Positions 2,408 to 64,000 of a DNA stretch of 64,000 nucleotides are shown here, in pieces. This stretch comes from Hydractinia symbiolongicarpus (Eukaryota > Cnidaria > Hydrozoa > Anthoathecata > Hydractiniidae), in the NCBI RefSeq assembly GCF_029227915.1, contig NC_079883.1:26474001-26538000 (forward strand), in the 5' to 3' direction. The notes under the pieces are model-generated. The model was given only the letters and a program-made list of their open reading frames with translations, was not told where the DNA came from and ran no database searches. The position numbers and the translations under genes were made by a program. How positions within the stretch are numbered: the stretch's first letter is position 1; the number at the start of each line of letters is the position of its first letter.

Positions 2408-3551
2408 TCTTATGGCTTCTGGTAAGCCATAAGAGTGTCAAGCCTACTCTACCAAACTGTTGGAAACCAAGTATTTTCTTGAACTCAAGTTGACTCTCTG
2501 CTGATTTTACTGTTTGATCTACCTTCCAGTGTCCAGCCTTTAAGTCTGCAGGAGAGTCTGACACTAGAAGATCAGCCGAATCTCGGAGGAGAAGATGACC
2601 GCTGATCTTAGCAGATTTTAGTATAGAGGATAGACTTTTTAAAGGTAACGGGCATGGCGATGAAGCGGAATACAAACTTATGTTAGAAATAGAGTGATGG
2701 AGTCTCAGCCACTTTCTTATGAAGAAAGAAAACTTTTGTTCTAGTGAAACAATACGAGATATCGGAACTTCGTAAATTAAAAAAGGCCATCGTATTCGGG
2801 GTATTAGAAGATAATGCAAAAACCACACTTTGTGAATGCCTCTATGGGAAGACTTATCTATGAGTTTGACTTGCTCTACAGCGTTAACAATAACCTGTTG
2901 GACAACAGCTGAATCTGACAATGTTGAATTTATCGTCCGGCCAAGAAACTTAACTGGTTTTGCGTGAATAGATGGGATTGGTTCTTGCAGGACACAAAAA
3001 GGAGACTGGTCTAAAACTTTTCCATTAGCTATAACAATGCTTCGTGATTTTGAAGGTCTAAAGCCCATTCCAGCCCAATGAAGGGCTGTTAAACAACGAT
3101 CCAACAAGTTTTGAGTTTGAGGGACACTTGAAGACATTAAAAATATGTCATCCATAAAGGCCTTAACCGGAGGATGGTCTGAATCGCTAGGCGGAACACA
3201 ACTTTTTAACTCTTCTTCGGCGCACACATATGCAATGATTACATTTATAGATGCCAAAAATAGTATGATTTATAATGTACATCCAATAAAATACATCTAA
3301 AGTGTTGGTGCCAGCTGGATGAGGCTGTAAAAGAGAATGACTTGCTCCAGAGGCTGCCATAGTAGGCGTTAATAAGCCTTATCCAAGACTCTGAAACACC
3401 ATAGCGACGAAGGGCCATGAAAATGAGTTTATGCGGTAAGGTGGGATACGCATTCCCCACATCAAGCCATATTGCAGATAGTGCATTTTTTCTAGACTTG
3501 GCGTTTCTCAGAGCAGCCCAGACAAGAGACATATGCTTCCAGCAACCAGGA
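2322..3551 (-). pseudogene. RLE LINE copy 1, reverse transcriptase palm and thumb
   Basis: From 3551 downwards the minus strand encodes an RT segment with AIWLDVGNAYPTLPHKL (RT motif A, D present) and then AFMDDIFL at about 3146-3163 (the catalytic xxDD box). GMGFRPSKS and VKFLGRTI follow (motifs D/E and thumb). The chain continues with about 200 residues of the RT-to-knuckle linker typical of R2-like elements. A frameshift near 3250 separates motif A from motif C. Upstream, the same gene is interrupted by a 3'-end insertion (3552-3895) and resumes at 3896. RT activity is improbable in this copy. Confidence 0.8.
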
Positions 3552-3895
3552 ATGATTGTGAGATAACAAAACAGCAAGCTGTAATGATGGAAATAGTCTA
3601 CTGACTTTTTTTGAATTGTAGAGGTTACACCTTCTAGAGATCTATTTTTAGTGCAAGATCTCCCTTTTTACAAGGATAGTCTGCAGAATCAAGGTAATTG
3701 AACTAAAGACCCTCTATAAACATTACATCACAAACACCTACTGACAGTTACAAGTTCTACAAAAGAGCAGACAAACACCCATGCGCCAGGACTTGTGAAC
3801 CTGGCCGTAGCTTTCCACATGTGTTACGGGATCCCAACACCCAGCCTTACACAGGTGATTGACGCTTGGGACCAGCCCTATGTCAGGACCAGCCC
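3552..3895 (-). repeat. 5'-truncated RLE LINE 3' end inserted in its own relative
   Basis: In minus sense this begins with the module AGGCTGGGTGTTGGGATCCC...CAGGTTCACAAGTCCTGG. It continues with AAAAAGGGAGAT, the TAGAAGGTGTAACCTCTA hairpin and CAGCTTGCTGTTTTGTTATC, ending at CTCACAATC. The order equals the 3' UTRs of the longer copies. The insert splits the RT gene of copy 1 in the same orientation: the protein runs out at NKSIQKG on one side and resumes at IPGCW on the other. This is what 5'-truncated target-primed insertion would leave. Confidence 0.7.
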
Positions 3896-5259
3896 ACATC
3901 CTTTTTGAATGGATTTGTTAATTAAGTGGTTTTTCTGGATGATGTGGTTTTCTAGGCGCTTTGACACAAGACTGAAAAAAAGTTTTCCTTCCACATTGAG
4001 GAGAGCTATTGGGCGAAAGTCCTTAATGGATGATGGAGATGGAGGCTTGTTTTTAGGATATAAACTTCTGAAGCGACCGTCCACTGAACAGGAATGTAGG
4101 AATTCTTTAAACAAGATTGGAAAAGGTTGAAAAGAAGGACGCAATTTGAGGACAATTCTTGTAAACAGTGTAAGGTATTTGGTTCAATCCGGGTGACGAT
4201 GCATTCCGCCGAGTATGAAGGATGGTTTGCAAGTCCTTGAAATTAAACTTGGAGGAATCAAATGCAGACGTGACGTTGGGAGCATTGAGCAAACCAGGAA
4301 GAGTCGAAAGCGGTATCTCATATAAGGGATCAACTAACACGGAAGATTTGTGGGCATCTAGGGATTCTTTAGGAACATTAAGCCTAATAGAGCATTTGGG
4401 ATCCAGCAGATCTTTACCAGCCTGATAAGGATTCTTACCAAATGCACGGTTTGCATTGCGGATCTTCCATCGCATTTTTCTGTTCCGTTCTCCCCGGCGT
4501 AATATTGTTAACTTTAATTTAACATTGCCTAGCGAAGTTTGTAAATGTTCCCTCTGCATTAAGTCCGACACGTTTTCCAGTTGTTGAGGAAGAGAATTTT
4601 TCTCTTTTACCAACGAGATGGACTGTAAGGCACGTCTGTTTAAACCAGATGGGGCATGTATGGGTTGAGCCTTAAATCCAAAGAGAAGGGAAGCATGATG
4701 GTAAATTTTGGATTCCAGAATTTCCATTCTTTCTGACAAAGGGTGAGATCCTAACAGGTTGTGGAAAACAGCATTGTTGAGAGCGCTACACGCTCCTGTG
4801 TCAGTGGATTTTGGCCATGAAATTCGTTGTTTTCTATTTTCTTAAGCTTTTCAATTTCTGCTGGTTGCTGAGAAAGAACACTGTGGGTTTTATCCAGGTT
4901 AGCTTTCAGCAGCTTAGACTTTTCAGTGGAACCGGCAGCAAGAACATCTTGCAAAACAACTTTACACGGTTTTAAATTCCAGTTTTTCAAGGAAGTTTCA
5001 TTTGAAGACGCAATTTCAAAGGTGATCGGTGGTGAAGAGCGACTAATTATATTAAAATCGATATCCGAAGGGGTAGTCCTAATACGGTCGGGGTCAATAA
5101 CATTTGGAAAATCATGGTTAAAAAGATTTGGATTTTTTGTAGACCAAAATAAATCCCAGGGGCCGGCCTAAGCTTGGTGGGTGCGACAGATAACAATTGG
5201 GTTGGGGCTGCCAACTTTAGTGCGGGCTCAGCAGGCATGTTTTTCATGCCATCCAACAA
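3896..5259 (-). pseudogene. RLE LINE copy 1, N-terminal region and RT fingers
   Basis: The minus frames give a charged N-terminal region (4751-5259), then a segment with GKNPYQAGKDLLDPK, then the RT fingers: SSPGLNQIPYTVYK followed by DFRPIALLNVEGKLFFSLV and RLENHI. The last is the motif 1/2 signature of LINE reverse transcriptases. At least two frame breaks (near 4740 and 4140) and a stop after 4751 make it a pseudogene. The AGKDLL segment is shared with the element at 60.4-60.9 kb, and the preceding region resembles the open frame at 63.3-64 kb, which ties all of them to one family. No clear 5' end was found; homology fades near 5260. Confidence 0.7.
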
Positions 5260-5945: not shown

Positions 5946-6419
5946 TTTTTAAATTATGTACGCTTTAGTCAATTATTAAGGAATACAGAATTAGGTTTTT
6001 TTTTAACAAGATAAAAACAATTTTTGCTAACCACGACCAACAGACAACAGCAAGTTACAAATACTAGAATCGTTATAGAATCCAGTCCTTATTTCGTTAC
6101 AGAATCCACAGATTCATAACTTGTATCGGATTATCAATTTATTATTGACTGATTAATTGATTTGTTCATCATTCATTAATTCATGCATTCATTCGGGTAT
6201 GGGATATTCAAGAATCTCTAGCGCATCCTGCTGGGTGAACGGATTGCAAGCGATACCTCTTGCAGAAGAATACTTACATAAATTTTACCTATCGCCATAT
6301 CAGAATCATTTGCGGAGATGGCTGTTGCGACTGGGGGTAACACATAATAACATTGTAAAATAGAATTAATGTAACAAGTGTTGCCTAAATTTAGCAAGCC
6401 GCTGTTGTTGTCTAATGTT
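5946..6419. other. No gene recognised
   Basis: AT-rich, with one short plus-strand frame (6157-6363) that has no recognisable motif. Its position between two LINE remnants suggests spacer or an unknown repeat. Confidence 0.4.
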
Positions 6420-8500
6420 TCTTGTGTAGGGAAGCTAGGGCAGCTTTTTGTTAAAAATTTAGGCTTCGAAGTGATTGTAAAGCTAGTGGTCGTACATGCT
6501 TTATTTTGTGATCTAGATGGTCTCTTTCAAACGATTGGTGTTAATTGAGTTATGTTCTTGCGATCTTTATCAGGATGAACCGAAGTTAAAGAATCTCTAG
6601 ATAGCCAGATGTAAAAAGATGATATCATAGAAGATTAAGTAAGAGATTTCAGAGTGGAACGCACTGACATGTAAGAAAAGCCAAGTCGACGGAGGCAGAC
6701 TCTAACTGTTTCGGAACAAAATTCCCTGTGTCGTACCACAACAGCAAAGAAATAGAGAGAACAATTGTTTGATTTCCTGACGACAACCTTACCTCCATGG
6801 ATTTATTGCGACATAAGGTGGTACTCTATTGTTGAATCAAAGTCTAACAGTACTCTCCACTCACACGCCTAAACAGGTATTCTTTGAATTTTTGAAGGTG
6901 TTTTGGTCGGAAGACGAAAAAAGGATATTCTGTGACATCTAGATGGTTTTGCTGACACATTATAGGATAATAACTTCTCTAAGGCTATCACGAACACACG
7001 CAGGTATTTACCTTGTAAAAGGGCTAATTTGCAGGCACATAAAATGTTAGACACGTTACAAGAATGCTTTTTACATAGGGTGCAACTTTTGCCCTTTTAA
7101 GAAGGAAGCATGTCATAAGTTGCGCCAACGCAGAACGAAGTTAAAATGTGCAGCCAAGACAGTAGGTTCTTTCAAAGGAGATCTATTTAATAGCATGCCC
7201 TACCAGACCTGTGGGAACCAAGTATTTTCTTAATCTGGAGTTGACTCGCTGCTGATTTACCTGTTTGGTCTACCTTCCAGTGTCCAGTTTTCAATTCTGA
7301 CATTAGAGGGTCAGCCGAATCTAGCAGGAGAAGATGACCACTGGTCTTTGCAGATTTTAATACAGAGGAGATGCTTTTTAAAGGTAGAGGACATGATGGA
7401 ATACAAACTTATATTAGAGATGTAGTCTCAACTACTTTCTTATAAAAAAAGAAAGTTTTTGCTCTAGTAAAACAATAATGCCCCTATACGAATATTTGTC
7501 TATGATTTTGGCTTGCTGTACGGCATTAGCAATAATTTGTTGAACAACAGCCAAAACCGACAATAACGAATATATTGTCCGGCCAAGAAACCTTACTGGA
7601 TTTGCATGAATTGACAAGATGGGTTCTTGCAAGAAACAAAAAGGAGATTGATCTAGGACCTTGCCATAAGATATAACAATGCTTCGTGATTTTTAAGGTT
7701 TAAAGTAAATTCCAGCCCAATGAAAGGCTGTTACGCAACGGCCTAACAAAATGAAAAAGTTTACAATACGGCAAGCTTTACTCAAGTGTCTTGTCTACAG
7801 GGACGGTGGTTGTCAAAATTGGGGTTAGGCTCCCAGAAAACGGTGCTGAATACACTTTTTTGCTTCTTACAAGCATAAGTACCGTGCACTTGTAAATATA
7901 AATATTCTTTGAAAAATCTTAAACAAACAAAACAATCCTTCCATCACAAACAATACGACAGAAAACAGAGCTAACAAAAGATCGAACAAAAATGTAAAAA
8001 TGTATATGTCAAAAATATATAAATATAGAAAAAAGTTAAATAAAGCCCTCCTGTGCGCCAGAATTTGTGACACTAGCTGTAGCTTTCCGCATGTGTTACA
8101 TGGCCTCAACACTCAGACTTACACAGGCGGTTGACGGGACATGTCTATCCTGATATTTTGACCAAGGACAGCAGGGTTGTCAAGCCTGAAAACCAAGTTA
8201 GTAAACTTGGTTCTGAGTTTGAGGGACACTTGAAGACATTATGAAAAGTCCTCCATAAATGCCTTAACCAGAGGAGTCTCGGAAAAAGTGGGTGTATGAT
8301 CTGAATCGCTAGGCGAAGTTCAATTTTTTATCTTTCAACTTTTCCCGACGGAAACGTACTTAATGATGATATTTATGGCTGTCAAAGACAGTATAATTGA
8401 TAACGTACATCCAATAAAAATATCTTTGAAGTGGTGGTGACAGTTGGATGAATCTGCAAGAGAAAATGACTTTCTTCAAAGTTGTTTCACACAAATGTGC
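6420..8500 (-). pseudogene. RLE LINE copy 2, heavily decayed
   Basis: This is a second minus-strand copy of the element at 1338-5259. The VEVGA/LGF tail region lies at 6620-6760, and the knuckle region (ILCACKLALLQGK) and basic linker at 6860-7060. The RT-linker match to 2450-3100 is at 7200-7740, and the RT palm match to 3110-3350 at 8206-8500. Deletions and frame breaks are frequent: no frame exceeds about 65 residues, and parts of the RLE core are missing. A subfamily 3 3'-end insertion at 7752-8205 splits it. No USP sequence is present, as in copy 1. Confidence 0.65.
7752..8205 (-). repeat. 5'-truncated RLE LINE 3' end, subfamily 3
   Basis: The block with ACGGTGGTTGTCAAAA and GGCTCCCAGAA is followed (plus orientation) by the common module GCGCCAGAATTTGTGAC...TTACACAGG and CAGCAGGGTTGTCAAGCCTG. 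A closely related copy is at 41735-42480. It interrupts the RT region of copy 2; homology to copy 1 resumes just after it at 8206. Confidence 0.6.
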
Positions 8501-40270: not shown

Positions 40271-40924
40271 AAATAACTTATCGTAAGATTACTAAAATGA
40301 GCATTGTATCATAAACGACAAAGCATATCAAACCTTAACATTACACAAACGCTACCACACTTTGTGCACTTGTGTACACCTATTACAGCAACAAACATTG
40401 GCGGAGCGCAACCAGCCGCCACAGTAAAAATATCTGATAATGCAAAGACTAATACCAAAATACAATGTTCGAAATGACATAACTATGTAGAAATATCCAG
40501 CAATGTATTGATAGACATGAACCTAGCACAACTCTGCCACAGTTTATGCTCTAGTGTAGAGTGCCAAACTACACTTCCAACGAACTAACGAAGCGCTACC
40601 AACCGTCACAATCTTAACCATCAATACGAAGACATACATTTAAAGCGACACAATTCAGAAAAGAGAACATATTTTTATTTTTTATTTTTACTAATTTACT
40701 ATTTTTTATTTTTTTTTTTTAAGTTGGGTCGTTACACCCAAAGACAAGGAAATTGCCAACCCCCCCCCCCCCCCCCTTGCTAAGCTTCTTATAATTGCTT
40801 TCTAGGAAAGCGGGAGTGAGCGAACTCGTGAATAACAGTAAACTGTATCAAAAACACACAGGGAAAATTTCAAACCACAGTTCACTGCCCTATCATCACA
40901 ATTTAACCATGTATTAACACCCTG
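40271..40924. other. Non-coding with homopolymers and one 3'-UTR block
   Basis: Runs of T (about 40710) and about 19 C (40760-40778). TCGTTACACCCAAAGACAAG and CTTGCTAAGCTTCTTATAA at 40728-40794 match a block of the LINE 3' UTRs. No gene seen. Confidence 0.5.
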
Positions 40925-41430
40925 ATCAGTTATGTAAGTGATGATGAAGTGATAAAACAGCTGCCTGTTGTGATATAGCTTGTCTAATGACGGCTGGTTA
41001 GATATTTATAGAGGTTGTAACTCACCGGAGATTCTGCATAATAGCAAAACTCTCCCTTTTTAACAAGGATTCCCTCAGAAAAAATACATTGACCATTAAA
41101 TAGGACGTGTAAAACAGTGGCAAAGCACAAAACACTAATAAAAAAACATAAAAAGACAACAAACAAAACAATTGGGCAATTCAAACTGAATTAATAGGCA
41201 CACGTAAAATAAAAAAAAACTTCTTATGACAAAACTATCCTTAAAAGGATAAATCTTAGAATAATTCCTAACAGAACAAATGTAAACTAAAGCAGGCAAC
41301 TATCTGTGCGCCAGAACTTGTGAACCTGGATTAGCTTTACACGTGTTAAGGGCGCCCAATACTCAGCCTTACACAGATCATTGCTGCGGTGCGTCAACCT
41401 AATGACAGTGCCAGCCTGTCATGACTGGTC
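40925..41430 (-). repeat. RLE LINE 3' end with complete module order
   Basis: In plus reading: GTTATGTAAGTGATGATGAA, TCTAATGACGGCTGG, ATAGAGGTTGTAACTCACC, ACTCTCCCTTTTTAACAAGG, then GCGCCAGAACTTGTGAACC, TTACACAGATCATTG and CCAGCCTGTCATGAC. It directly adjoins the USP remnant upstream (41431-41734) and is probably its 3' UTR after an internal deletion. Confidence 0.65.
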
Positions 41431-41734
41431 ACTACCAGTGTGCCTGAATGATAGATAGTGGCGGTTAATTTATATTGGTTTGTAAATGATATATCATCCA
41501 AAGGATGTAAATAAACTTTTAGGGTGTCGTCACCTTGAGCGAGGCAAGAAACAAATTTATTATTTCTCACAGATCTTCCTTGGAGACAGTTAGTTAAACC
41601 TTTTCAGTTGGATAATCAGTATGTCTCCACACTGGGTGAAAACAGTTTCCCGGGTACTGTCTTTCTTGAAGGGAAGAGCACTGTGGGCACACCCATCTGT
41701 CATTTCCAGGCATATATTCTGGTTGCAAAAATTG
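41431..41734 (-). pseudogene. USP deubiquitinase fragment of an RLE LINE
   Basis: The minus strand reads DRWVCPQCSS with LQER (the CXXC zinc half of the USP fingers), then FTQCGDI and IIQLKRF. After frame changes come RNNKFVSCLAQGDD, ISFTNQYKLTATI and HSGTL. The sequence stops at HSGTL, immediately before the GHYWAF that carries the catalytic His context in the other copies, where 3'-UTR sequence begins. Upstream, a subfamily 3 insertion cuts it at 41735. It is a dead fragment. Confidence 0.7.
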
Positions 41735-42866: not shown

Positions 42867-43937
42867 TTGCTTATCAAGACGTTCTTATATTTGGCGCAGA
42901 ACTTGCACCGAACTTGCGTAACGTACTCGTTGCTATTTTTCCCCACCTTTGACCCAATTATATCGTGCGGAAAACGAGTCTGCACTACAGCTCACATTTT
43001 AGGGGTCTGCAATACCGCTCTAACGCAGGCTAGATTTACGCATCGTCACAACTCTGCGTTGCGCGAACTTTCACAGTTTATCACCACGTTTTCCAGATCT
43101 ATTTCCTCTCCTGTAAAGCATCTAAATAATATAAAATTTATTAAAGCAGGTAGTCACCCATCTAGCAAAAAAATCAAAACCGGTAGGGCTTTTGCATCTT
43201 GCCACGGACTGGTTATTTCTTTCAGATTTAAATGGTGACTTATTTTTCCTGGTCATATTGCCATAACATCGCTTAGACCAGATCTTGTCCTGTATTCCAA
43301 CAGCAGCAAACGTGTTATTTTAATTGAACTTACTTGCCTTTGTGAGGAAAACATAGAAACCTGACACTCCAAAAAGCTCTTTAAATACATCGCTTTTATA
43401 AATGTCATCGAGCATAATGGATGGCAAGTAAATCTGTTCGCGATCGAAGTAGGTGCACGCGTATATTGCTCTCGGTCGGTTGTAATTTGTTTAAAAAGAT
43501 TGGGTTTCCCAAACAAAGAAGCTTTCCAAGGCGTCCGGAAATTAGGCGACATTTGTGTCAGAGCATCCTTCTGCATTTTGCTAGCCAGGAACTCAATTAC
43601 GTTGAACCAAGGCAGCTGCCCCTCTATTGCCAAAGGTTGCAACAACGACAACAGTGTCAACAACGAAGGCCAACTGTGGATAAAGGTCAGTTACACCCGG
43701 ACCCAGAATCGCCTAACAACAGCAATCCAGCAAAACCAACTCATGCTGTCCTGATTAATAAAGGGAATACATGCTATAGTAATTCTATCCTGCAAGCATT
43801 ATCTGTAACTCCTGCAAGCATTATTTGTAACTCCTGCAAGCATTATCTGTACCTCTTGCACTTTGGTCACAAAGTGCATCGGAGTCCTCTTTTGTTTCCC
43901 TCTGACCAAGTCCGTCTTGCTCACTATGTCTTGTGTC
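42867..43937 (+). pseudogene. RLE LINE fragment: zinc knuckle, RLE endonuclease, start of USP
   Basis: The plus strand reads CGKRVCTTAHILGVC (CCHC knuckle), FTHRHN, then across a stop and frame change LRPDLVLYSNSSKRVILIEL with CEENIET and SKKLFKY (RLE Asp, Glu, Lys). AIEVGARVYCSRS, GDICVRASFC and a linker follow. After another shift comes VLINKGNTCYSNSILQAL, the USP Cys box with its catalytic Cys. A 22-bp stretch is present three times at 43797-43858 within the USP. The USP breaks off at about 43937, where an unrelated RT fragment begins. This is a second, independent copy with the order RLE-linker-USP seen at 48-49.6 kb. Confidence 0.8.
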
Positions 43938-44630
43938 ATCAGTACACTGATGACAGTCAATAATACTTTTCGTACTATACAAAGTTTCGAATCCCACATC
44001 CAATCACTTTCGCAATGGTCAGTTGAAAACAGTCTTGTATTCAAAAGTAATAAACTGAAAGCAATTATATTCTCTTTGTCTAGAATGAAACAAACAAAAG
44101 AGAAGAGCTACCTTATTCGATTCAGAGGTAGATCCATTCCACAAGAACAACCTGCAAAGCTACTAGGTGTAAAATTCAATCAACATCTAGCTTAGACAGA
44201 ACAAGTCAACTCTATTCTCAAGTAAGCATATGGTACCCTTCGAGCACTTAAAAGCTTCAAACGATTCACACCATTTACAATGTTTTTAGGAAATCCTTGC
44301 AAAAAGGGGGATTTAGCTTTTTTGAAAAATCTCTAGAGGGTTGCAACCTCTAGCTATAGTAGGACCAGCTGTCATTAGACAAGAAATATCATTACAGCTA
44401 GCTGATTTGTCACCTCATCATCAATCAACGTAAATTCTTAGGAGAAGCTCTCATGCTATCGATTCTTAACTATGGTAACGTTGTGTATGGACAATCTCCA
44501 ATCTACCTTCAAACACGGTTATAGCGGCTTTTTCAAAACTGTGCTGCTGGATACGTTCTTGGTCGTCACGCAAAGCTTCCTGAACTAGTGTCAATTGGTT
44601 GCCAATTCAAGAAAACATTGAATTAAAACT
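43938..44630 (+). pseudogene. Reverse-transcriptase fragment of another LINE (CR1/Jockey-like)
   Basis: HQYTDDSQ (RT xxDD box), then IQSLSQWSVENSLVFKSNKL, KAIIFSLSRM, AKLLGVKFNQHL and, after an insertion at 44275-44425, AEIL-type thumb sequence ILNYGNVVYGQSPIYLQ and AAGYVLGRHAKLPEL. The motif set is that of APE-type LINE RTs, not of the RLE family. Multiple frame breaks; only the palm end and thumb remain. Confidence 0.6.
44275..44425 (+). repeat. RLE LINE 3' end inserted in the RT fragment
   Basis: Plus sense: TTAGGAAATCCTTGCAAAAA, GGGGGATTTAGC, TCTAGAGGGTTGCAACCTCT, CATTACAGCTAGCTGATTTG and TCACCTCATCATCAA. It is almost the same as the 3' end at 47330-47195 (inverted). Confidence 0.75.
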
Positions 44631-45054
44631 TGTGACTCTGGCTGTATCTTTCCACATGTGTTACAGGGCCCAACACTCAGCTTTAAACATGAGGTTGTCA
44701 TGACAGAACCAGCCTGTACATATTTTGACTAAGGACAGCAGCTTTGTGAAGCATGAAGACTAAGTTAGTAAACTTGGGCAACTTACTGAACTAGGTTAAA
44801 AAATGGGGTCATTACACCCAAAGACAAGCTGCATGCAAACCCCCTTCCTAAGCTTCTTTCAAGTTACCAAAGAATAGTGAGCTGAACTCTTTACCCTCTG
44901 GGTTTTGACGGTCAACTGGTTCGAATGAACTAACCGGGGTAATATAAAACCGCTCTGATTTACATTTTCCCTCCACATGACACTGGAAATATGGGTTTTA
45001 TAAACGTAATGATAAATGTAAAAGAAAGAAAGCAAAAGCGGATCAAGAGCGAAC
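44631..45054 (-). repeat. 3' UTR of the USP-bearing LINE copy at 45.1-45.9 kb
   Basis: Minus sense after the USP: CATGTGGAGGGAAAATG, CGGTTTTATATTACCCCGG, TCTTTGGGTGTAATGACCCC, GCTGTCCTTAGTC and GCTGAGTGTTGGGCCCTG. It then stops at about 44631, where the unrelated RT fragment begins, so the terminal hairpin part is missing. Confidence 0.65.
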
Positions 45055-45911
45055 CTAACAAAGAATACAACATGAACTGTTCTTGAGAATAGGTGGTGAG
45101 CATTTGCAAACTCCTCCATCGTTGCAGTGCTGCCCAGAATTTGTGGCAGGATCCTTAACACAGGCCCAATAACGACATGCGGTCAACGTACCGGAGTGAT
45201 TAATTGTTGCTAACAATGAGTAGTTCTGATTAAACATTGTATCCGTGTTGCAGGAGAGAGTCACGTAAAAAAACTACAAGATTGGATTTTAGATGTCATT
45301 GGCAGTGTTAAAATGTCCTGCATTTCGACATTTACCGAGATGCACAGGCAGGTGTTATAGCTTACGGACATTAAGATTTCAGTTAAGATTTAATCTGCAG
45401 TAATCGGGGAAGATCCCTTAAGTGCGTCCAAAACCACAAACAAAATCTCTGCTAATCTTACTGATTATCAAATTGGAAGTCCACTTTCCCAGAGCCCAGA
45501 GAAAATTCGAAGGGTCAACAGGTGACAATGATTGCTTCAGCTTCGCCATGTTAAGCGAAATAGACCTCGCAATAGGTGACAAATGAAACGATTCTGACCC
45601 ACTTTGGCACCAGAGTGTTGGAATCGTACTTAATACTTGCAAAATGGCGTTGGCGTAACAAGCGTTGCCTTTGTTTAAAAAACCGATGTTTTTATATACA
45701 CTTATTGGTTGAGTGTTTTATTTTGGCTAACCGTTTTAGAAGGCCCCTTTTTGCGAGATGAAACACCCTTGGTCTCCACATTGGGCAAAGCCTGCTTGGA
45801 TTTGGGTAATTGCATTAAGGAGTCAGTTGAGCAAGCATTGGACTCACGCGTCAGGCAGATACAAAAAGAAGACCTCATATTGATTTTACCGAGATCATTT
45901 GCAATAAGCAA
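45055..45911 (-). pseudogene. RLE LINE fragment: pre-USP linker and USP deubiquitinase, deleted
   Basis: The minus strand reads INMRSSFCICLTRES (the segment joining RLE and USP), a linker, LNKGNACYANAILQVL (Cys box, catalytic Cys kept), SISLNMAKLKQSLSPVDPSN and FLWALG. After a deletion of the middle (QQD and zinc regions) come QNYSLLATINHSGTL and CRYWACVKD (His-box context, with the usual GHYWAF changed to CRYWAC). Together with 41431-41734, 42867-43937, 47997-48865 and 60940-62265 it shows that the USP is a regular part of this LINE family. Confidence 0.75.
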
Positions 45912-45939
45912 GTTTGTTGGTGAAACATATTCTTTTTAA

Positions 45940-46765
45940 ACAGGCCGGTACCCTCCAATAAAAGGGCCGAACTTGCTGTCAAGTCGATCAAGAAATTGAT
46001 GGATAATATTGATTCACAAGAACGTCTCGATACTGACCCAGTAATTTGTGCGTTACTCATTACTAATCAAACGTTATACTTCTGATCCAGGTTGCCATCA
46101 ATCCCCATCTGGGGTATTGTTCAGGCATACACTCTGAGATACCCTCCCTTTCTTCAGAAAAGACACTGAGCTGTTCGATAACAATCAAGTCTTTCTTGTT
46201 GGAGGGAAGCATGGAAACTGAAAGAAGAATTATTAAAGACTCGCTATGCCAAGACGGTTGAAAAACTTAACGAACATTCTCGACCACTCACTACCTGATC
46301 AGGTACTGATCCAGAATTAATCAGGTCAATATCCTACGCGATGGGATCACAGTGGTGTTGTTGTTGGAGTGCGTGATTATGATCAATACTACGTGAAAGT
46401 TGCTGGCACTGGACGTATCTCACTTCGCAATCGCAGATTTCTGAAATTACCAGCCTCATCTGCTTCACGGAACAATAAAAGATGCAACATCCCAACATGC
46501 AGCCAACATTCTACCTCCAATGTGCACAACCAACATTCAACCACTGGCACACTCAGTCAATGTCGAAACTAAGACGTGCGGAACCAACCGCCAACTTCCA
46601 ACTCGTGAAGCCCCTATAAAATCCCCAATGCGTGGAGCAAATGTTCACCCTTCAAAAAATGTAGCCAACACCCAACCTTCTTTGCCTGCTCCAGATACTC
46701 TTCAACCTTCTACCGAGGAACTCGGACACAGAGTTAAAGCTTACCTCCCAAGAAAATCAAGTTGA
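45940..46765 (+). pseudogene. Ty3/gypsy-like integrase C-terminal remnant
   Basis: Plus frames with several stops read RPVPSNKRAELAVKSIKKLM, then EKLNEHSRP, and finally GVVVGVRDYDQYYVKVAGTG and RISLRNRRFLKLP. The pattern (strand-transfer domain end, basic linker, chromodomain-like SH3 fold with YYVK and NRRFL) is that of gypsy integrases. No LTR or other gag-pol part is seen near it. The Pro/Thr/Asn-rich tail (46500-46765) follows in frame. Confidence 0.6.
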
Positions 46766-47034
46766 CCTAAATCGATTCATAACATTTTCACAAAAAACAA
46801 TTTAATGTTTATTTTGTTAAATTGCTTCAATATTAAGAAGCCAGACAATGTTTACCTCGTGATTTGAAAGCATTCACTCAATTTCTCGCCATTTTGTAAG
46901 TAAGCACTTAACAGTAAAGTTATGCGTCTGACGTCACTAGTTAGAAGCTCACATTTGGACCCCCGGGATGAGAGGCGAAACTTCGCGCATAGGATGTGAT
47001 TTGTAAAGAAAAATTCCACACGCTTGATGAGAAA
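46766..47034. other. No gene recognised
   Basis: Short non-coding gap with one near-palindromic TGACGTCACT at 46930. No repeat family assigned. Confidence 0.4.
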
Positions 47035-47194
47035 ATAATTTACAAAGAGGTGGCTAATAATTTACAAAGAGGTGGCTAGCCACAGGTCTTTGGAAATAAG
47101 CTAGAGGTTGTACTTCTCTAGAGAAAATGCCTCTAAAATCACATTCGCCCATTTTTCAAGGAAATAATTAAAAAAAATATTAAAAAACAATAAA
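47035..47194 (-). repeat. RLE LINE 3'-end block, subfamily 2, partly duplicated
   Basis: ATTTACAAAGAGGTGGCTA occurs twice, followed by GCTAGAGGTTGTACTTCTCT and the CATTCGCCCATTTTTCAAGG variant of the C-rich block. It abuts the 3' end of the large copy starting at 47195. Confidence 0.6.
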
Positions 47195-47996
47195 ATTGAT
47201 GATGAGGTGACAAAACAGCTAGCTGTAATGATATTTCTTGTCTAATGACAGCTGGTTCTACTATAGTTAGAGGTTGCAACCCTCTAGAGATTTTTCAAAA
47301 AAGCAAAATCCCCCTTTTCGCAAGAATTTCCTAAAAACATTGACCGTAAAAGGCAGAAAAATACAACAGCGACAGAACACAACACTAAACAATAAATATT
47401 AAAGCAATTCAAAATGAATTGAATAGGTACAAATGAGATAAAACTTATCATAACGTGAATATCCTTAAACGGATAAATTTGAAATTATTCTTTAGAGAAT
47501 GTGTTTAAGAAGCAAACAACTATCTGCGTGCCAGGACTTGTGACCCTGGCTGTAGCTTTCCACATGTGTTATGGAGCTCCAACACTCAGCCTTACACAGA
47601 TAATTGTTACTGTGGACCTGCCTAATGACAGTACCAGCCTGTCATAACTGGGGTATATGCGTGGGCGTAACACTAAGAAGACCAGTTAAGAAAATTTAAC
47701 TGCCTTGCAAAGCTTCTTCTAAAATGACTAAGGGCAGCAGGATTGTCAATCCTGAAAGCAAAGTGAGCAAACTCTGCCTCCCTACTGGACTGGGGTAATA
47801 AGTGGGATCGTTAAGACTAAAGACAAGATATGATATCAAGCCCCCTTGCTGTGCTTCTTACAGTGTCTCTATACAAAGAGAGGAGTGAGCAAACTCCGGT
47901 TTCACGGTGCACTGACCAACATAAATCAGCTGGGGTGAATAAAACCGCTAGGGTTATGGATTCCCTCCCCCATTTGTTGTGTGACATACAAATAAG
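47195..47996 (-). repeat. 3' UTR of RLE LINE copy A
   Basis: Minus sense from the USP stop: ATGGGGGAGGGAATCC, CCTAGCGGTTTTATTCACCC, TCTTTAGTCTTAACGATCCC, GGCTGAGTGTTGGAGCTCC, CAGGGTCACAAGTCCTGG, a spacer, CGAAAAGGGGGATTTTGC, TCTAGAGGGTTGCAACCTCT, ATTACAGCTAGCTGTTTTGT and CACCTCATCATCAA. The same order lies in plus sense at 62266-63025 after the USP of that copy, so this is an authentic 3' UTR. Confidence 0.75.
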
Positions 47997-48865
47997 CTAA
48001 CTTCTGGAAAAGAAAAGTATGTATGACGAAGAATTATTCAAGTGAAATGTGTCTACTTGAGAAATACAGCGATCGTTGCATTTGAACCAGGTGTTTTGTT
48101 GGTCCTTAATGAAGGCCCAGTAATGACCTGCTTTTAATGTACCTGAGTGGTTAATGGTAGCAACCAAGTTATACTTGTTGTTGAAAGACACATCGTCAGT
48201 TGGGTGAGATGCTACCTTTAAGACTTGTTGTCTTTAAAAGAAGACCCATTTACTGATGTGTATCTTAACAATTGTACAACAAGGAAGTCGCCGCAATTAG
48301 AAATCTGAGTTTCAATTGTGGCCTCTTGATGCGATGAACACTGGGGGCAGAACCACTTGTTGTCACCTAGAAGTTCTTGAGGTTGTAAAAATTTGTTAAA
48401 AGAGTCTGCTATTGACTTACACGTTGGCAAAATTAAAATTGAATCCTTTTGTTCCCTGGAAGTGGAGAAACAACAGGAGTTGCATGACGTTGTTGTGGTC
48501 ACAGTTACAGACAGTAGATTGTCAACCAAAGGGGAATAAAAATAATTTCGTTAAAAACAACTTGAAGGATCTCAGGCACATCTTGTTGGTGATTGTGATA
48601 AAACGCGTTATTGTTAAGAGCATGCATTCTGTTTTGCAGTGCTCGTAAGAAATTGGAAGGATCAATTGGTGAACGAGAACGATTCAGTAGTGACATATTT
48701 AGGACTATAGACTTTACTAGAGGAGATGACAAAGAGGACTCTGATGGTAATTGAGACCAAAGTCTTGTAAGAACCGTTAATGCTTGCAAAATGGAGTTTG
48801 CGTAGCATGTGTTCCCCTTGTTTATCAAACCAGCGTGAACGATGCTCACCTTTTGTTTAAGTTCC
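47997..48865 (-). pseudogene. USP deubiquitinase domain of RLE LINE copy A
   Basis: In order on the minus strand: HAGLINKGNTCYANSILQAL (Cys box, catalytic Cys codon 48807-48805), PIDPSNFLRALQNRM, HNHQQDVPEILQVVFNE (QQD box), then after one shift near 48530 VTTTTSCNSC and FCPQCSSHQEATIET (zinc half-sites) and LVVQLLRYTS. After a second shift near 48200 come NNKYNLVATINHSGTL and AGHYWAFIKD (catalytic His, about 48123-48125). All catalytic and zinc elements of a USP/UCH-type deubiquitinase are present, which in principle would cleave ubiquitin from conjugates. The Cys box shares one open frame with the endonuclease tail upstream, which proves the fusion. Two frameshifts disable this copy. Confidence 0.88.
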
Positions 48866-49589
48866 TGGCTAAGGTTATGGTGTTCCGTGGGTTTTGGCAT
48901 GCCAGAGATGGCTGAAGATGGACTTTTAATGGATTTGGTAACAGACGAGGATTTTTCATGAGGTATACTATCCTTTGGTCGTGGCAATGTTGGAGGACTG
49001 CAGTGCGTAAGATCTTGTGACCAATGTGGTGAGTCTCGTGCAATCCAAATGCAAAAGGATGCTTTCATGCTTATATCGCCAAGCTTGCGGGCGGTTAAAA
49101 AGGCAGATTTGCTAGCGAAACCGAGGCTTTTTAGACAGCAAGTTAGAGACCTTGAAGAGTAACCCCTAGCACCCACTTCTACTGCAAAAAGATGCGGAAA
49201 CCACCCGTTGCTACGTATTACCTCGACCAAAGGGAATTATTTGGAAAGCTTGGTGGAATGCCAGGATCCCATGTTTTCCTCACAAGGACAAGTAAGTTCA
49301 ATAATGATGATGCACTTAGAACAATTTGAGTATATTACAATGTCTGGCCTGAGGGATGTGATTGCAATATGGCCAGGAAACACAAATCCTTCATTCAGAT
49401 CTGCTAACATCACCCAGTCACTAGCATGGTGGAATAGACCAGTTGGTTTTGATCCTTTAGCGGAGGAATAGCTACCTGCTTTTACAAATGACACTTTAAG
49501 GTGCTTTTTCGTTTCCGGGACAACTTCAGATGAAAAACGCTCTAGACTTAACAGGAGCCCGCGAAGCACAGCATCGTGTCGGAAAGTGA
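48866..49589 (-). pseudogene. RLE endonuclease domain of LINE copy A (downstream of the copia insertion)
   Basis: FRHDAVLRGLL begins right at the copia insertion (49589). Then SDWVMLADLNEGFVFPGHIA and LRPDIVIYSN (catalytic Asp) precede IIIELTCPCEENMGSW with the Glu, and STKLSKY with the Lys. After a small frame change near 49235 the same open frame runs AVEVGARGYSSRS, GDISMKASFCIWIARDS, and a 75-residue Ser/Pro-rich linker into the USP. This is the PD-(D/E)XK nuclease of R2-like LINEs. It is interrupted by the copia element between GRFT (53574 side) and FRHD (49589 side), where the AGTGA duplication was made. Confidence 0.88.
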
Positions 49590-49800
49590 TATTGAAATTA
49601 CAGACACTCTAGTCAGATATTTACTGAAACGTTACGGAACATTCCAGAACATTCTTGAACATTCTAGACGTTTTTCCTTGTATACTAGTATTTTCTAGCA
49701 AATTCCATGTAAAGACTATATATAAGCTGACTGTAAACATTTATGTATGTACATTGTGAAGTAAATATATCTTCAGAACCATAACAAATATTATTCAACA
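49590..49800 (+). repeat. 5' LTR of the copia element
   Basis: 211 bp; TATATAAGC at about 49718 may be the TATA box. It matches 53358-53568 apart from A/G (about 49627) and C/T (about 49796). Confidence 0.9.
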
Positions 49801-49981
49801 GGTTATGGGCCCAGAGTATTGCCCAGTATAACTGAAGATAGTGAGAAGAAACTTGTAAGCAAAGTACGTGCACAACTTGACGCCATCTTGGAAATTTGTA
49901 GTTCACGGAATTTTGGTGATTGTTATCACGGAATCAAAACATTGGTATTCCGGTATTTAGTTGAAAGTATCCGGAGGAATA

Positions 49982-53350: not shown

Positions 53351-53357
53351 GGAGGAG

Positions 53358-53568
53358 TATTGAAATTACAGACACTCTAGTCAGATATTTACTGGAACGT
53401 TACGGAACATTCCAGAACATTCTTGAACATTCTAGACGTTTTTCCTTGTATACTAGTATTTTCTAGCAAATTCCATGTAAAGACTATATATAAGCTGACT
53501 GTAAACATTTATGTATGTACATTGTGAAGTAAATATATCTTCAGAACCATAACAAATATTATTTAACA
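53358..53568 (+). repeat. 3' LTR of the copia element
   Basis: 211 bp. It is preceded by a TGAGGAGGAG purine tract and followed by the AGTGA target copy. Confidence 0.9.
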
Positions 53569-53934
53569 AGTGAACCTTCCTTGTGATAAAGAAACCTTGC
53601 AAGCGCCTAAAACATGCGCTGTTGTACATACTTGTTTGGAACATAAGGCACAAGCAGATTCAATACAAACGTTCCAGCGCTTTAAATTGCTAGGTGAGGG
53701 AAGAACATCGTAAGTAGAAGCAAGACAGAAGCAACTGCAATGCTCTACCCATGTTGCCTTCCTCATCGATATCTTTAGCTGTGTTTGATATTAATTTACG
53801 ATACGCATAGCACTGTTTTGAAATCGGAATTTTGAAAGATTTGTTGATCCCTAGGCCTGCTTTGGCATACGGGGGAGTTCCCACGACTGACTTTATTTTC
53901 ACCTCTGCCTCTGCTGTTCTTACTGCGTGACACA
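53569..53934 (-). pseudogene. RLE LINE copy A, RT-linker and zinc knuckle (upstream of the copia insertion)
   Basis: Minus frames read GLGINKSFKIPISKQCYAYR, KDIDEEGNMGRALQL, and after a shift CALCSKQVCTTAHVLGACK (CX2CX7HX4C knuckle) with VSLSQGRFT ending at the insertion site. It aligns with 2135-2450 of copy 1. Upstream of 53935 the copy is replaced by another 3'-end insertion, so RT is lost. Confidence 0.75.
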
Positions 53935-59371: not shown

Positions 59372-59393
59372 TTATTTATACGTACTATAGTGT

Positions 59394-60248: not shown

Positions 60249-60459
60249 ATTGAGTTCAAGAAAAATAATAGTAAATAAGTAGCGATAATAACATCCAGTA
60301 ACTATATAATTGAGAAGTACTGATTGATTAGATAATGATTGATAATATGTTAGCTTTGAATTTTATTTATCACTCTTTCGTTCACCATTGTCCACGCGCA
60401 CGCTACTACATCCGCCATGTTTTTTTCAAAATACGCCTTTAATTAAATATGTTAGTCTG
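60249..60459. other. 5' UTR region of the LINE
   Basis: AT-rich sequence upstream of ORF1. The exact 5' end of the LINE was not determined. Confidence 0.35.
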
Positions 60460-60910
60460 TCAAAGTATCTAGTCCTCCTTGCTGAAAGAGTTTCCTGCAT
60501 TACCTACTTTGAATACTTTGAAGCACATTTTGTGAGATCTGCACGCATCCAACTCTGCAAGTTTGTTCGTGTTGGCCTTTCGAACATAATTTGGTATCAG
60601 TGGCTCATTAAGAAAAGTAGAAAGAAAGATGAGGTGGGAAACAAAGAAGAAAAGAATGGACCTTTTAAGAAAGCCCGAAAGGTTTTTACAAATGATCCCC
60701 ACTAAGCAGGAAAGGACCTTCTTAACCCTAAATCAGATATTCGTCTTTCTGTGAAACAGCCTGTTCTGGACAACCATAAATTATCTAGCTTATCAGATAA
60801 TTTTCGCGACTCTTCTCTTCCCCTTCTTCCAGGTCTTTCACCATCTCTACAGATAAAGCTTTCTTGCCACATCTTTCACATTTTCTGATTTGCTAGTATT
60901 TTATATACGC
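60460..60910 (+). pseudogene. RLE LINE copy D, N-terminal remnant
   Basis: The plus frames end in KKSRKKDEVGNKEEKNGPFK, a stop, then AGKDLLNPKSDIRLSVKQPV and LPLLPGL. This parallels AGKDLLDPKCSIRLNVPKES...STLPGLL of copy 1. RT and RLE are missing; USP sequence starts within about 50 bp, so a large internal deletion joined the two ends. Confidence 0.6.
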
Positions 60911-60939
60911 GTAGGAACGCCTCAGCTCCTGGGAACCAA

Positions 60940-62265
60940 CAGTCACCAACCCCAATACACCAGTTAGAGCAGACCCAGACCCACCTACCCACATCAAAGT
61001 AATTCACGCAGGATTAATAAATAAAGGAAACACCTGTTACGCCTATTCCATCCTGCAAGCATTAGCTGCAATCCCATCATTTTGGTTACATTGTGCTTCG
61101 GAATCTTCTCTTGTTTCTCCTCTATCAAAGTCTGTTATGCTGAGTATGTCCATGCTGTCCCAGTCTTCCACAGCTGTTGACCCTTCTGCCTTCTTAAGAG
61201 CCTTGCAGCGTGAGATGTCCAGCATTAGGAAGACCCCATTCGACATTAATACACACCAGGACGTGCCAGAAATACTGCTTCATGTCTTAGGTGAATTAAC
61301 AGGCCCTTCTGTTATCGCAACACATGATCTTGTCTTTGGAGAGTAACGACTCCACTTATTAACTGAAAGTGGTCAAAGTTAATTTTAGGAAGATAGGAAT
61401 GTCTAGTTTCTGCTGATGACCGTCCGCGGACCTCTTCGAGGTGACCCAGCTAGACATCCAGGGTACTTAGGTTCAGAAATATGGGTCGAAACCTACCTGC
61501 CATTGGTTAAAGTTCTGTTCATCTTTTCAAATGTGTTGTGTCCTTTTTATTATTTTTTTTTTTATATATACTTTTTAATTAATTCCTTTTAAAAAGGGAG
61601 AATTGTGCTTTTAGAGGCATATTCTTTAGAGGAGTACAACCTCTAGCTTGTTTCCAAAGACCTAACAGGTTGAATTCATCATTGCGGTGGCTTGCCACCT
61701 CTTTATAAATTATTTTCTTATGATATCATCACCAACATCATAACCACTACAACGTCATGTAATACATGCTTTTATCAACTAGCAGAAACGAAAGTATGCC
61801 TATTGTGCCACTCCCTATCTCAAACACCGTTACAGGTTCAATTAATTGTTTTTTGCAGCCTGAAAATTTGTCTAAAAATGACAGGTGGCTTTGCCTGCAG
61901 TGCTCTTCTTATCAAGACAGTACAAGCGAAGCTGTTTTCACCCAGTGTGGAGACATTCTATTTATCCAAATGAAGAGGTTTACGTTTCTTGATGGAATTT
62001 TTTATTTGTTACCTGCCTCGCTTCAAATGACGACATTTTTACAGTTTGCTCTCAGACAACGGATGACATATCATTTAACAACAAATATTCGTTAGCTGCC
62101 ACTATTAATCATTCGGGCACCCTAGGAGCAGGTCACTATTGGGCATTCATTAAAGATCGCAGCTGTGGCTCATGGTTAAGATGTCACGATAAAGCAGTTG
62201 TTAGAGTCGCACTTTCTGATTTAAATAACTCTTCTATGTATGTTTTGTTTTTTGTCAAAATGTAA
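60940..62265 (+). pseudogene. RLE LINE copy D, USP deubiquitinase domain split by a 3'-end insertion
   Basis: KVIHAGLINKGNTCYAYSIL opens the domain (Cys codon 61035-61037), followed by AVDPSAFLRALQREM and NTHQDVPEILLHVLGEL (QQD-type box, here HQD). 61327-61715 is an inserted 3'-end module. It then resumes TTTTSCNTC, a frame change, WLCLQCSSYQDSTSE and CGDILFIQMKRF, another change, NNKYSLAATINHSGTLGAGH with the catalytic His in GAGHYWAFIKD, and a normal end VLFFVKM at 62265. It is the only copy with both the Cys box and an intact C-terminus near each other, but at least two shifts and the insertion disable it. Confidence 0.8.
61327..61715 (+). repeat. RLE LINE 3' end, subfamily 2, inserted in USP copy D
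   Basis: Plus sense: GATCTTGTCTTTGGAGAGTA, ATGTCTAGTTTCTGCTGATG, GGTGACCCAGCTAGACATCC, AAAAAGGGAGAATTGTGC, TTTAGAGGAGTACAACCTCT and GGTGGCTTGCCACCTC. It has the same orientation as its host copy. Confidence 0.75.
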
Positions 62266-63025
62266 AAATTGTCTGATTAACATTCACATAAAAGGGGGAG
62301 GGTTATCTTTCCCTAGCGGTTTTGTATTACCCCAGCTGTTTCTGTCACTAGCAGTCTACCGTGAACATAGAGTTTTCTCACTCTTCACTCTCTTATAGAG
62401 TAATCATAAGATGTACAGCAAGAGAGTTCGACTATGTCTTTTCTTTGGGTGCGACGACCTCACTTTTTACCCCAGTACAGTTGGGAGGCCAAGTTTGCTC
62501 ACTTGGTCTACAGGGTTAACGATCCTGCTGTACCCATAGTTCTTCTTGTAAGAAGCTCTGCAAGGTGGTGTGAAATTTCTCTTTTATGTCTTTGTGGTTT
62601 TACGCCCATGCGTATCACACCAGTAACTTCAGGCTGGTCCTGACCAAGGCTGGTCCTGAGCATCAATCACCTGTGTAAGGCTGAGTGTTGGGATCCCGTA
62701 ACACGTGTAGAGCTACAGCCAGGTTCACAAGTCCTGGTGCATAGGTAGTTGTTTGCCCCCTTTTTATAGTTTTTATTTATTTGTATATATATATATATAC
62801 GCTTTATGTCAATATATGTTTTTTTTTGTTTTGTTGTTGCAATATTTGTATTGTCCAGAGGGTTGCTTTTTTAGTTAACTTTGTTGTACAGACCATCCTT
62901 GTAAAAGGGAGATCTTGGTTTGCATATAGATTTTTAGAGGTTTAACCTCTACCACATAAAATAAGAGTCATTAGACTAGTCGAATCACTACTGCTTGCTG
63001 TTTTGTTATCTTATAATCATTATCT
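62266..63025 (+). repeat. 3' UTR of RLE LINE copy D with complete module order
   Basis: After the USP stop: AAGGGGGAGGGTTATC, CCTAGCGGTTTTGTATTACC, TTGGGTGCGACGACCTCACT, AAGGCTGAGTGTTGGGATCC, CAGGTTCACAAGTCCTGG, a TATATA stretch, TTGTAAAAGGGAGATCTTGG, TTTAGAGGTTTAACCTCTAC, CTGCTTGCTGTTTTGTTATC and TTATAATCAT. It serves as reference for the truncated copies elsewhere. Confidence 0.8.
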
Positions 63026-63332
63026 GTTCACCGTAACGGTTTTCATGACTGTCAGGAAAAGCTGGCTGACTTTAGGAAAGACTAGGGACACTAGGAAAGA
63101 CTAGTAATGTATCACTTGATACCTGACTTGACTGTCCTTAAGCAAACCCTTAAGGAAATGATTTTGATTTGATTACTTCGGACCCCAATCTACGGTATGC
63201 GCCAATAGATGAATGGCTAATGGGTTAATTAGTCGCTAGCGAATCCTCACAGTTGTGACGAAGCTGTGAAAATTATAGCCTTGCCCTGTGCGCCAGGCAA
63301 CGCAGGGTGGTCCTTTGTCCTGTGCATATTAG
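63026..63332. other. Spacer with a LINE-tail-like motif
   Basis: A duplicated GGAAAGACTAG and a CCTTAAGCAAACCCTTAAGG palindrome, then ATGATTTTGATTTGATT, which resembles the simple tails at ends of APE-type LINEs. No gene. Confidence 0.4.
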
Positions 63333-64000
63333 TTCACTGTAGTTCTGTATTCTACTTTTCATAATCCTCAAAGCTGCTACGGTGATAATGATATTGATTT
63401 TGAAGTAAATAAAACAGCTGTTTGTCATTCAAACCAACTTCCTTCTTTAGAAAGTTGCAGAGTTGTTCTTGAAGATATTAACTCTAAACGGGGTGCTGAA
63501 AAGTTTCAGACAGTAAATGTGTCTCCGAATAAAACTCACACGAGTCATTCCTGTCACACTGATGAGAAGTATCTCGAACATCTGCACATCAAAACACCAA
63601 TTAAAAGGGGGGAAATGAACGATCCACTTTGGTCTGTCTCAGACAAATCTGTTTGCAACAGACTATCTAATTCTATTAACAATTGTGACTCTTTGTCATC
63701 TAAAGTCAAACTTCTTAAAGACACCATCTATGAGGAAGGCGTGAACATTTTTGGGCACCCAGAGGCTAATCAGCGTAAAAATCTCTCTGGAAAAAACAGG
63801 AGAACCCTAAATTCTATAAAGTCAATTAAGTTAAACTCTCTGTTTGCACAAGTGGAATTTGCTTCTAATCCTGTACAAAAGTCAGCTCTCCAACAGCTGC
63901 TTTTAGAAACTAGGGAGAAAATTAAGGTTGTGCGTCGCTCAGAAAGACAACAAAAAAAGAAAACTAGTTTCAGAAAGCCTCAATCCGCTTTTAGGAATAA
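63333..64000 (+). CDS. N-terminal part of another RLE LINE ORF, running off the window
   Basis: The plus frame stays open from 63333 to the last base (about 222 codons) without a stop. It contains CYGDNDIDFEV, LESCRVVLEDINSKRG, SNSINNCDSLSSKVKLLKD and EGVNIFGHPE. KNRRTLNSIKSIKLNSLFAQ follows, then LLLETREKIKVVRRSERQQK. The order and residues parallel 4107-4990 of copy 1 (LESKIYHHA..LFGF, LNRRALQSI, LQTSLGNVKLKLTILRRGER), so this is the region upstream of the RT. It is the only RLE LINE segment here free of visible damage. The true start codon is unclear. Confidence 0.6.

Follow-up and report, generated by a model that had tools for sequence, protein, structure and literature searches.

The window, the whole 64-kb stretch of Hydractinia symbiolongicarpus DNA that was analyzed, contains eight places occupied by a non-LTR retrotransposon of the restriction-like endonuclease (RLE) type, and six of these eight also contain sequence of a USP-type deubiquitinase domain. 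Most of the copies resemble one of four families (A to D), and they are distributed over both strands as follows:

1527..5002 (-): RT and RLE of a copy related to the following D-like one, no USP after it
6192..8472 (-): family D-like copy with RT remnants, RLE, linker and USP Cys box (6365-6391)
40883..41734 (-): family C-like USP remnant
42966..43982 (+): family C-like copy with RLE, linker and USP Cys box (43757-43783)
45046..45945 (-): family A-like copy, RLE tail followed by a USP with degenerate boxes (NKGNACY, CRYWAC)
47197..47999 (-): tail (3' UTR) of the family B copy, 96% identity to the whole 808-bp tail of L015 (family B)
48000..49590 (-): family B copy with RLE, linker and USP, frameshift inside the USP (tblastn, L015 ORF as query)
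48111..48128 (-): USP His box of the family B copy, GHYWAF
48505..49236 (-): single open frame of 243 aa with RLE tail (AVEVGARGYS...), Ser/Pro-rich linker and N-terminal USP part (UCH 1.1e-10, aa 135-231)
48796-48822 (-): USP Cys box of the family B copy, inside the 243-aa frame
53569..53929 (-): family B copy beyond a Copia insertion, ORF aa 733-883, CCHC knuckle at 53599-53652
60598..62262 (+): N-terminal part of the RT adjoining linker and USP, with an apparent internal deletion and a repeat insert near 61.36-61.57 kb
62290..62756 (+): 3' UTR belonging to the copy listed above, 75% identical to that of family B
63066..64000 (+): next element in head-to-tail arrangement, 5' UTR and N-terminal ORF part (element part 63.44-64.0 kb) without USP, continuing past the window end

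The family B copy at 48.0-49.6 kb agrees with the L015 ORF at 95% over aa 882-1231, 98% over aa 1234-1337 and 94% over aa 1345-1422 (tblastn) and is split by the Copia insertion from its remainder at 53569-53929. Its 243-aa frame confirms the initial annotation, which had described one frame joining RLE tail and USP Cys box at 48505-49230. The second copy claimed there, at 42867-43937, has indeed the same order of RLE and USP, but it is broken and the two domains lie in different frames. The three further USP remnants reported at 41.4, 45.1-45.9 and 60.9-62.3 kb are real, whereas the RLE-linker-USP copy at 6.19-8.47 kb (-) had been missed. Two places without USP, at 1.5-5.0 kb (-) and 63.44-64.0 kb (+), had also been overlooked, and downstream of RT and RLE at 1.5-5.0 kb no USP was detected at E < 0.1. 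The proposed sharing of 3' UTR modules holds as well: in addition to the family B copy with its tail, each of the remaining five USPs in the window is followed by tail sequence of A or B type, which at 5.9 kb is only 65 bp long and at 44.3 kb only 146 bp.

As the copies in the window are damaged, the intact frame was demonstrated at other loci of the same genome. Among 26 loci examined for frames, which were chosen by score and frame length and correspond to 24 distinct places, six (L009-L014) have an uninterrupted frame of 1426 aa, and in all six the USP follows the RLE within this frame. Such a continuous RT-knuckle-RLE-USP frame in a young copy is what the initial annotation had proposed to look for, together with the Pfam families RVT_1 and UCH. 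Both were found in L012, the one of the six loci that was searched against Pfam, with RVT_1 at 8.2e-16 and a C-terminal UCH domain covering the full model (1137-1423, E 5e-32); UCH is also full length in L015 and L016, which were searched in the same way. An R2-like CCHC knuckle and the RLE are located between RT and USP. The pairwise identity of the intact copies is at least 99.3%, which indicates recent activity of this family. Single frames through RLE and USP are present in families A, B and D, and several diverged families have the same domain order. The element is an RLE-type (R2-like) non-LTR retrotransposon with one long ORF coding for RT, knuckle, RLE and a C-terminal USP.

The association is also evident across the genome. 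Of 150 listed UCH matches, 64 directly follow an RLE of equal orientation, compared with a mean of 0.32 and a maximum of 4 after shifting the positions in 500 rounds, and the spacing is exactly 124 nt in 22 of the 64 linked pairs. Furthermore, USP sequence is present at 18 of 19 examined RLE places that had no listed USP, and the one exception is the window copy at 1.5-5.0 kb. Together with the single ORFs this rules out a chance juxtaposition, excludes that the LINE stops short of the USP, in the intact copies as in the family, and supports the earlier assignment of the USP to the RLE LINE rather than to a neighbor.

Among solved relatives, the USP profile matches USP8 (E 2e-40), USP15 (6e-38) and USP2 (7e-34). 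The Cys-box Cys, the His-box His, the Asp of the ND/DD motif and the four CxxC cysteines are invariant in all four families (A to D), and the Cys box, His box, Asn/Asp and zinc-finger cysteines are likewise invariant among six USPs compared; one zinc Cys is absent from L016. The USP is very probably an active deubiquitinase. Groupings of the families based on the RLE and on the USP agree with each other. Between families the USP has a pN of 0.28-0.49 versus a pS of 0.76-0.88, a comparison that is qualitative because synonymous sites are saturated between families, and in this qualitative sense the domain is under purifying selection. Within families pN/pS ranges from 0.45 to 0.95 with few changes, and for the same pair the USP (0.47) is less constrained than RT-RLE (0.36).

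The RT is closest to R2 proteins among solved structures (E 6e-20), and the R2 alignment extends weakly past the RT through knuckle and RLE. In this comparison 8c8j, which we take to be L1 ORF2p, matches the RT at 2e-11 and ranks above 8gh6 (presumably Bombyx R2) at 7e-8. The knuckle CxxC-x8-H-x4-C is found in families A, B, C and D; PD, ELTCPCE and KY, presumably the RLE motifs of a PD-(D/E)xK endonuclease, are invariant in the four-family alignment, and a zf-RVT match in Pfam (5e-5) is under its curated cut-off. We also considered membership in established clades. In L012, L015 and L016 Pfam listed no match to an N-terminal ZnF or Myb, and no common insertion target was visible by eye in the 3' flanks of 11 of 12 family A copies compared, the flank of the twelfth being the next element; the R2 clade proper was rejected on these grounds. 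In the same three loci there is no match to Peptidase_C48 (Ulp1-like) and none to APE or OTU, and NeSL and Dualen were rejected as well. Exact matches of 5-20 bp near both junctions were never longer than 6 bp in all nine copies compared, and we therefore claim no target-site duplication.

Ubiquitin-based restriction of LINEs is established in mammals, where the host E3 ligase TRIM41 acts on human LINE ORF2p (PMC10716122) and UBR2/TEX19.1 on mouse LINE ORF1p (PMC5570191); for Hydractinia we argue by analogy. Tethered to RT and endonuclease, the USP would act in cis and strip ubiquitin from the ribonucleoprotein (RNP) of its element, which host E3 ligases could then not direct to proteasomal degradation until target-primed reverse transcription has run to its end. 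An RLE LINE with a C-terminal active USP that protects its own RNP is in our opinion the best explanation as a whole and has an even chance of being correct, and we tentatively assume, following the mammalian examples, that this protection may be the main role of the USP. Alternatively, although we consider it unlikely, the USP might deubiquitinate histones H2A/H2B, PCNA or repair proteins at the cut site and thereby keep nicked target and cDNA from being treated as damage. This would be in line with the position of the USP immediately behind the endonuclease, which is the domain in contact with the target, and with the repair-related role that PMC2836005 proposes for the Ulp1 and OTU domains of Ginger transposases, but the best solved relatives USP8, USP15 and USP2 single out no chromatin enzyme, and similarity does not fix the substrate.

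It is rather improbable that the USP is a passenger or a ubiquitin-binding domain without catalysis, acquired accidentally and retained although no enzymatic function is needed: the damaged boxes in some copies (45.1 kb in the window), the missing zinc Cys of L016, the USP-free copy at 1.5-5.0 kb and the weaker constraint relative to RT-RLE could be read in this way, but the catalytic and zinc residues are invariant in four families, nearly all further RLE places have USP sequence and pN is well under pS. The polyproteins of other retroelements are processed by proteases, and the USP could similarly free domains by cleaving the polyprotein of which it is part, or else a ubiquitin-like fusion. 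This is very improbable, as USPs cleave after ubiquitin and no ubiquitin domain was found above the Pfam cut-off in L012, L015 and L016, the APG12 match in L012 and L016 (E 0.04) being sub-threshold. Finally, a separate host gene or neighboring element that merely adjoins the RLE would fit the three of 25 distinct places of L001-L029 with a USP and no RLE in the examined stretch (L001 and L002, which look like host genes, and L003, the same place as L027, which looks like a 5'-truncated copy), but its probability is negligible in view of the uninterrupted ORF at six loci, the fixed spacing and the null expectation, and in families A, B and D the single frames through RLE and USP refute it.

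If the USP indeed protects the element's own RNP, it is conceivable, and we suggest this with some more reserve, that an animal clade of RLE LINEs is defined by a C-terminal USP, which would act as cis-fused counter-defence against host ubiquitin ligases and would have been kept through the divergence of several families. Viral deubiquitinases would have a counterpart in such a retrotransposon. A scan of viral contigs found no relative with a single-sequence query; with the four-family alignment, three out of 23 candidate stretches gave a match, which was confined to the USP and had 24% identity, and no RLE was found in these three loci. No LINE that encodes a USP-type deubiquitinase is known to us, and no report of a USP on a LINE was found in the open-licence PMC papers searched. 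The USP would be the third protease family on LINEs after Ulp1 and OTU, an indication that mobile elements have acquired deubiquitinase or deSUMOylase activities repeatedly. Furthermore, the young, near-identical copies in a hydroid used in the laboratory make it testable whether a retrotransposon answers post-translational restriction with its own enzyme.

Among known systems, R2 retrotransposons (9nl2, 9dou, 8gh6) share the RT similarity (E 6e-20 to 7e-8) and have their knuckle and RLE arranged likewise. They differ in that the R2 protein ends with the RLE and R2 targets 28S rDNA, while no common target was visible by eye in the family A flanks. R2 also has an N-terminal ZnF/Myb (PMC13188248), for which Pfam listed no match in L012, L015 and L016. 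Dualen/RandI resemble the Hydractinia element as LINEs with an RLE and a deubiquitinase-type protease. This protease is an OTU protease. Dualen/RandI LINEs carry an APE in addition to the RLE (PMC4640811), whereas L012, L015 and L016 have no match to APE or OTU. NeSL and Utopia-1_TSP (PMC4640811) are likewise RLE LINEs whose RT-RLE protein includes a cysteine protease of the ubiquitin/SUMO family, but their protease is Ulp1-like and N-terminal, while that of the Hydractinia element is a C-terminal USP (C19). Outside the LINEs, the Ginger1 DNA transposons, mostly from Hydra, are hydrozoan mobile elements with a C-terminal OTU or Ulp1, which differ as DDE transposases without RT or RLE and in their protease families, and Trichomonas XP_001314237 has a Peptidase C19 fused to a mobile-element enzyme (Transposase_11), in this case a protist DNA transposase without RT (both from PMC2836005).

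An open reading frame on the reverse strand (48505-49236) connects the tail of a restriction-like endonuclease (RLE), by way of a Ser/Pro-rich linker, to the Cys box of a USP (peptidase C19) with no intervening stop codon, and Pfam places UCH, its profile for USPs, at amino acids 135-231 of this frame (E 1.1e-10). The initial annotation had read it as a USP encoded downstream of the RLE within one LINE; the observation is real and this interpretation is supported. The remainder of the USP, down to 48000, lies in other frames, where a pair of CxxC motifs and the His-box sequence GHYWAF are found. In the 64-kb window the element is present at eight places, six of which carry a USP:

Places of the element in the window, located by searching with intact proteins encoded at other loci of the genome
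1527-5002, reverse strand: RT and RLE, without USP
6192-8472, reverse strand: RT remnants, RLE and USP
40883-41734, reverse strand: USP
42966-43982, forward strand: RLE and USP
45046-45945, reverse strand: RLE tail and USP
48000-49590, continued at 53569-53929, reverse strand: a single copy, interrupted by a Copia element
60598-62262, forward strand: N-terminal part of RT adjoining linker and USP
63441-64000, forward strand: start of another element, which runs off the window

Five of these USPs had already been recognized, and the copy at 6.2-8.5 kb had been missed. The shared 3' UTR modules were confirmed as well: an 808-bp tail of family B, one of four diverged groups (A-D) of the element, is located at 47197-47999 (96% identity). 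Each of the other five USPs is followed by pieces of an A- or B-type tail, just 65 and 146 bp long in two cases. The family of the 48 kb copy is represented by L015, a family B locus encoding 1422 amino acids (94-98% identity). The Copia-type LTR retrotransposon inside this copy (49590-53571, type assigned by eye) has 214-bp repeats that are 99% identical.

Other repeats also occur in the window. Positions 1-985 and 11011-11995 form an inverted repeat with 985-nt arms, 100% complementary and 10 kb apart, of which the first arm may reach beyond the window. Between 32297 and 36258, units that are 95-100% alike recur every ~1.45 kb with a repeated ORF, which we take to resemble a HARBI1-type transposase. 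A further LINE-like element occupies 55894-60362; one of its long ORFs starts with a PHD-like cysteine-rich stretch (by eye). Minisatellite-like repeats with several open frames form an inverted pair at 14203-14541 and 20295-20705.

A six-frame search of the genome (480,894,487 bases, 76 contigs; the window is on C9), in which the best candidates were scored, returned at least 150 UCH matches. Among 26 loci (8+18; 24 distinct places) picked by score and open-frame length, six (L009-L014) contain a single frame of 1426 amino acids, and L015 and L016 have frames of 1422 and 1423 amino acids. Pfam domains were determined for L012, L015 and L016 among these full-length frames. In L012, RVT_1 is located at 339-609 (E 8.2e-16) and UCH at 1137-1423, covering all 254 model positions (E 5e-32), and zf-RVT scores under its curated cut-off (E 5.3e-5). 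The uninterrupted RT-knuckle-RLE-USP frame proposed as a check does exist in young copies. Judging from the 99.3-99.7% identity of the five other 1426-amino-acid copies to L012 across 5.57-5.68 kb, the family has been active recently. The best solved-structure matches of the upstream 1078 amino acids are R2 proteins (E 6e-20), followed by 8c8j (2e-11), presumably L1 ORF2p, and 8gh6 (7e-8), which we take to be Bombyx R2.

Searching the same genome with the RLE of L012 yielded 153 reported matches, 150 of which were used. In 64 of the 150 UCH matches listed, an RLE match on the same strand precedes the USP within 1.5 kb, whereas a random-shift null of 500 rounds produced a mean of 0.32 linked pairs (maximum 4), which rules out that the USP is a chance neighbour of the RLE. 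The spacing is exactly 124 nt in 22 linked pairs and 178 nt in eight, and among the matches listed one pair is in the wrong order and none is on opposite strands. Because both match lists are limited in length, 86 RLE matches had no partner. Sixteen of these were examined, 13 taken from the 19 at the head of the list and three from lower positions, with L033 nearly identical to L034 and L039 to L040. All sixteen have USP sequence downstream, reduced to the first 19 residues in L036 and preceded by an insertion in L038. Together with three unpaired RLEs in the window, where a USP follows two and none was found after the RLE at 1.5 kb (best E 0.14), USP sequence is present in 18 of 19 unpaired places examined. 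Both lines of evidence argue for the USP as part of the LINE. Viewed from the USP, an RLE lies directly ahead in 22 of the 25 distinct places of L001-L029; the exceptions are L001 and L002, which look like host genes, and L003 (= L027), which looks like a 5'-truncated copy starting in the linker. Extra USP pieces without an RLE directly before them occur within the stretch examined in L005, L009, L013, L017, L019, L021 and L024.

Families A, B, C and D are deeply diverged; they are represented by L012, L015, L028 and L029, the last being one 667-amino-acid frame holding RLE and USP. Two more lineages were detected, one from a tandem array on C13 (L041) and a C-like one (L044). Pairwise identity for the RLE is 0.57 (A-B), 0.58 (A-C, with the C RLE joined across a frameshift), 0.65 (B-C) and 0.44-0.49 (D versus the others), and for the USP 0.47, 0.45, 0.55 and 0.33-0.34. 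In the RLE as in the USP, B and C resemble each other most, A comes next and D stands farthest apart, with the small difference between A-B and A-C reversed; this is as would be expected if the fusion of RLE and USP predated the divergence of the families. The A-D alignment shows no variation at the Cys of the Cys box, the His of the His box, the Asp of the ND/DD motif or four cysteines of the CxxC motifs, and the same holds for a set of six USPs to which L027 and L007 belong; Asn/Asp is the third catalytic residue of USPs. Between families the USP has a pN of 0.28-0.49 at a saturated pS of 0.76-0.88, and for the A-B pair pN is 0.37 versus a pS of 0.80, compared with 0.29 versus 0.78-0.81 for RT-RLE-linker. 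Qualitatively, these values are evidence that the USP is under purifying selection, though less strongly than RT-RLE. Within families the USP ratios are 0.45-0.95, on too few changes to be informative. Contrary to conservation, however, L016 lacks one zinc Cys, L017 is altered beside both boxes and the window copy at 45 kb has damaged boxes.

Several USP LINEs are arranged head-to-tail (L009-L014, L024 and window 62290-63328), with the end of the 3' UTR repeated before the ORF. The unit measures ~5.37 kb, as neighbouring USPs are 5365-5387 bp apart at three places, and the RLEs of a five-copy array on C13 are spaced by 5296-5305 bp. The first 291 bp of L012 repeat the 3' end of the same element, and a 3'-end copy precedes the ORF in seven of 12 copies compared (L009-L014, L024). 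The repeats look as if transcription had begun within the 3' UTR of the copy ahead, and copies with more upstream sequence have a TATA-rich stretch directly before the L012 start point. HeT-A has a 3' UTR promoter that drives the copy following it in tandem, and a candidate promoter of this kind is plausible here. By eye no common target was visible in 11 of 12 3' flanks, the remaining one running into the next element, and no exact flank repeats longer than 6 bp were found in nine of nine copies.

The closest solved relatives of the element USP are USP8, USP15 and USP2 (profile E 2e-40 to 7e-34). As all of them are known deubiquitinases, the element USP is likely to be enzymatically active. 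USP domains on three IMG/VR contigs (L030-L032) share 24% identity with it. In mammals, the E3 ligase TRIM41 is described as restricting LINE ORF2p (PMC10716122), and UBR2 with TEX19.1 as restricting ORF1p (PMC5570191). A deubiquitinase on the same polypeptide as RT and RLE could reverse E3 tagging on the element's own RNP, and such protection is our leading reading. The main rival is that the substrates of the USP would be chromatin or repair factors that carry ubiquitin at the cut site, in favour of which a similar idea has been put forward for Ginger transposases (PMC2836005).

No report of a USP or C19 domain on a LINE was found in the open-licence PMC literature searched, and the available text of the Hydractinia genome paper classes repeats just broadly (PMC11067881). 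A ubiquitin-family protease on an RLE LINE is already known, but for no LINE did we find this protease family and position described in that literature. Dualen bears an OTU domain. In NeSL and Utopia-1_TSP, as far as described in PMC4640811, the Ulp1-like protease is N-terminal, whereas Ginger1 transposases carry OTU or Ulp1 at the C-terminus and one Transposase_11 protein of Trichomonas bears a Peptidase C19 domain, according to the account in PMC2836005.
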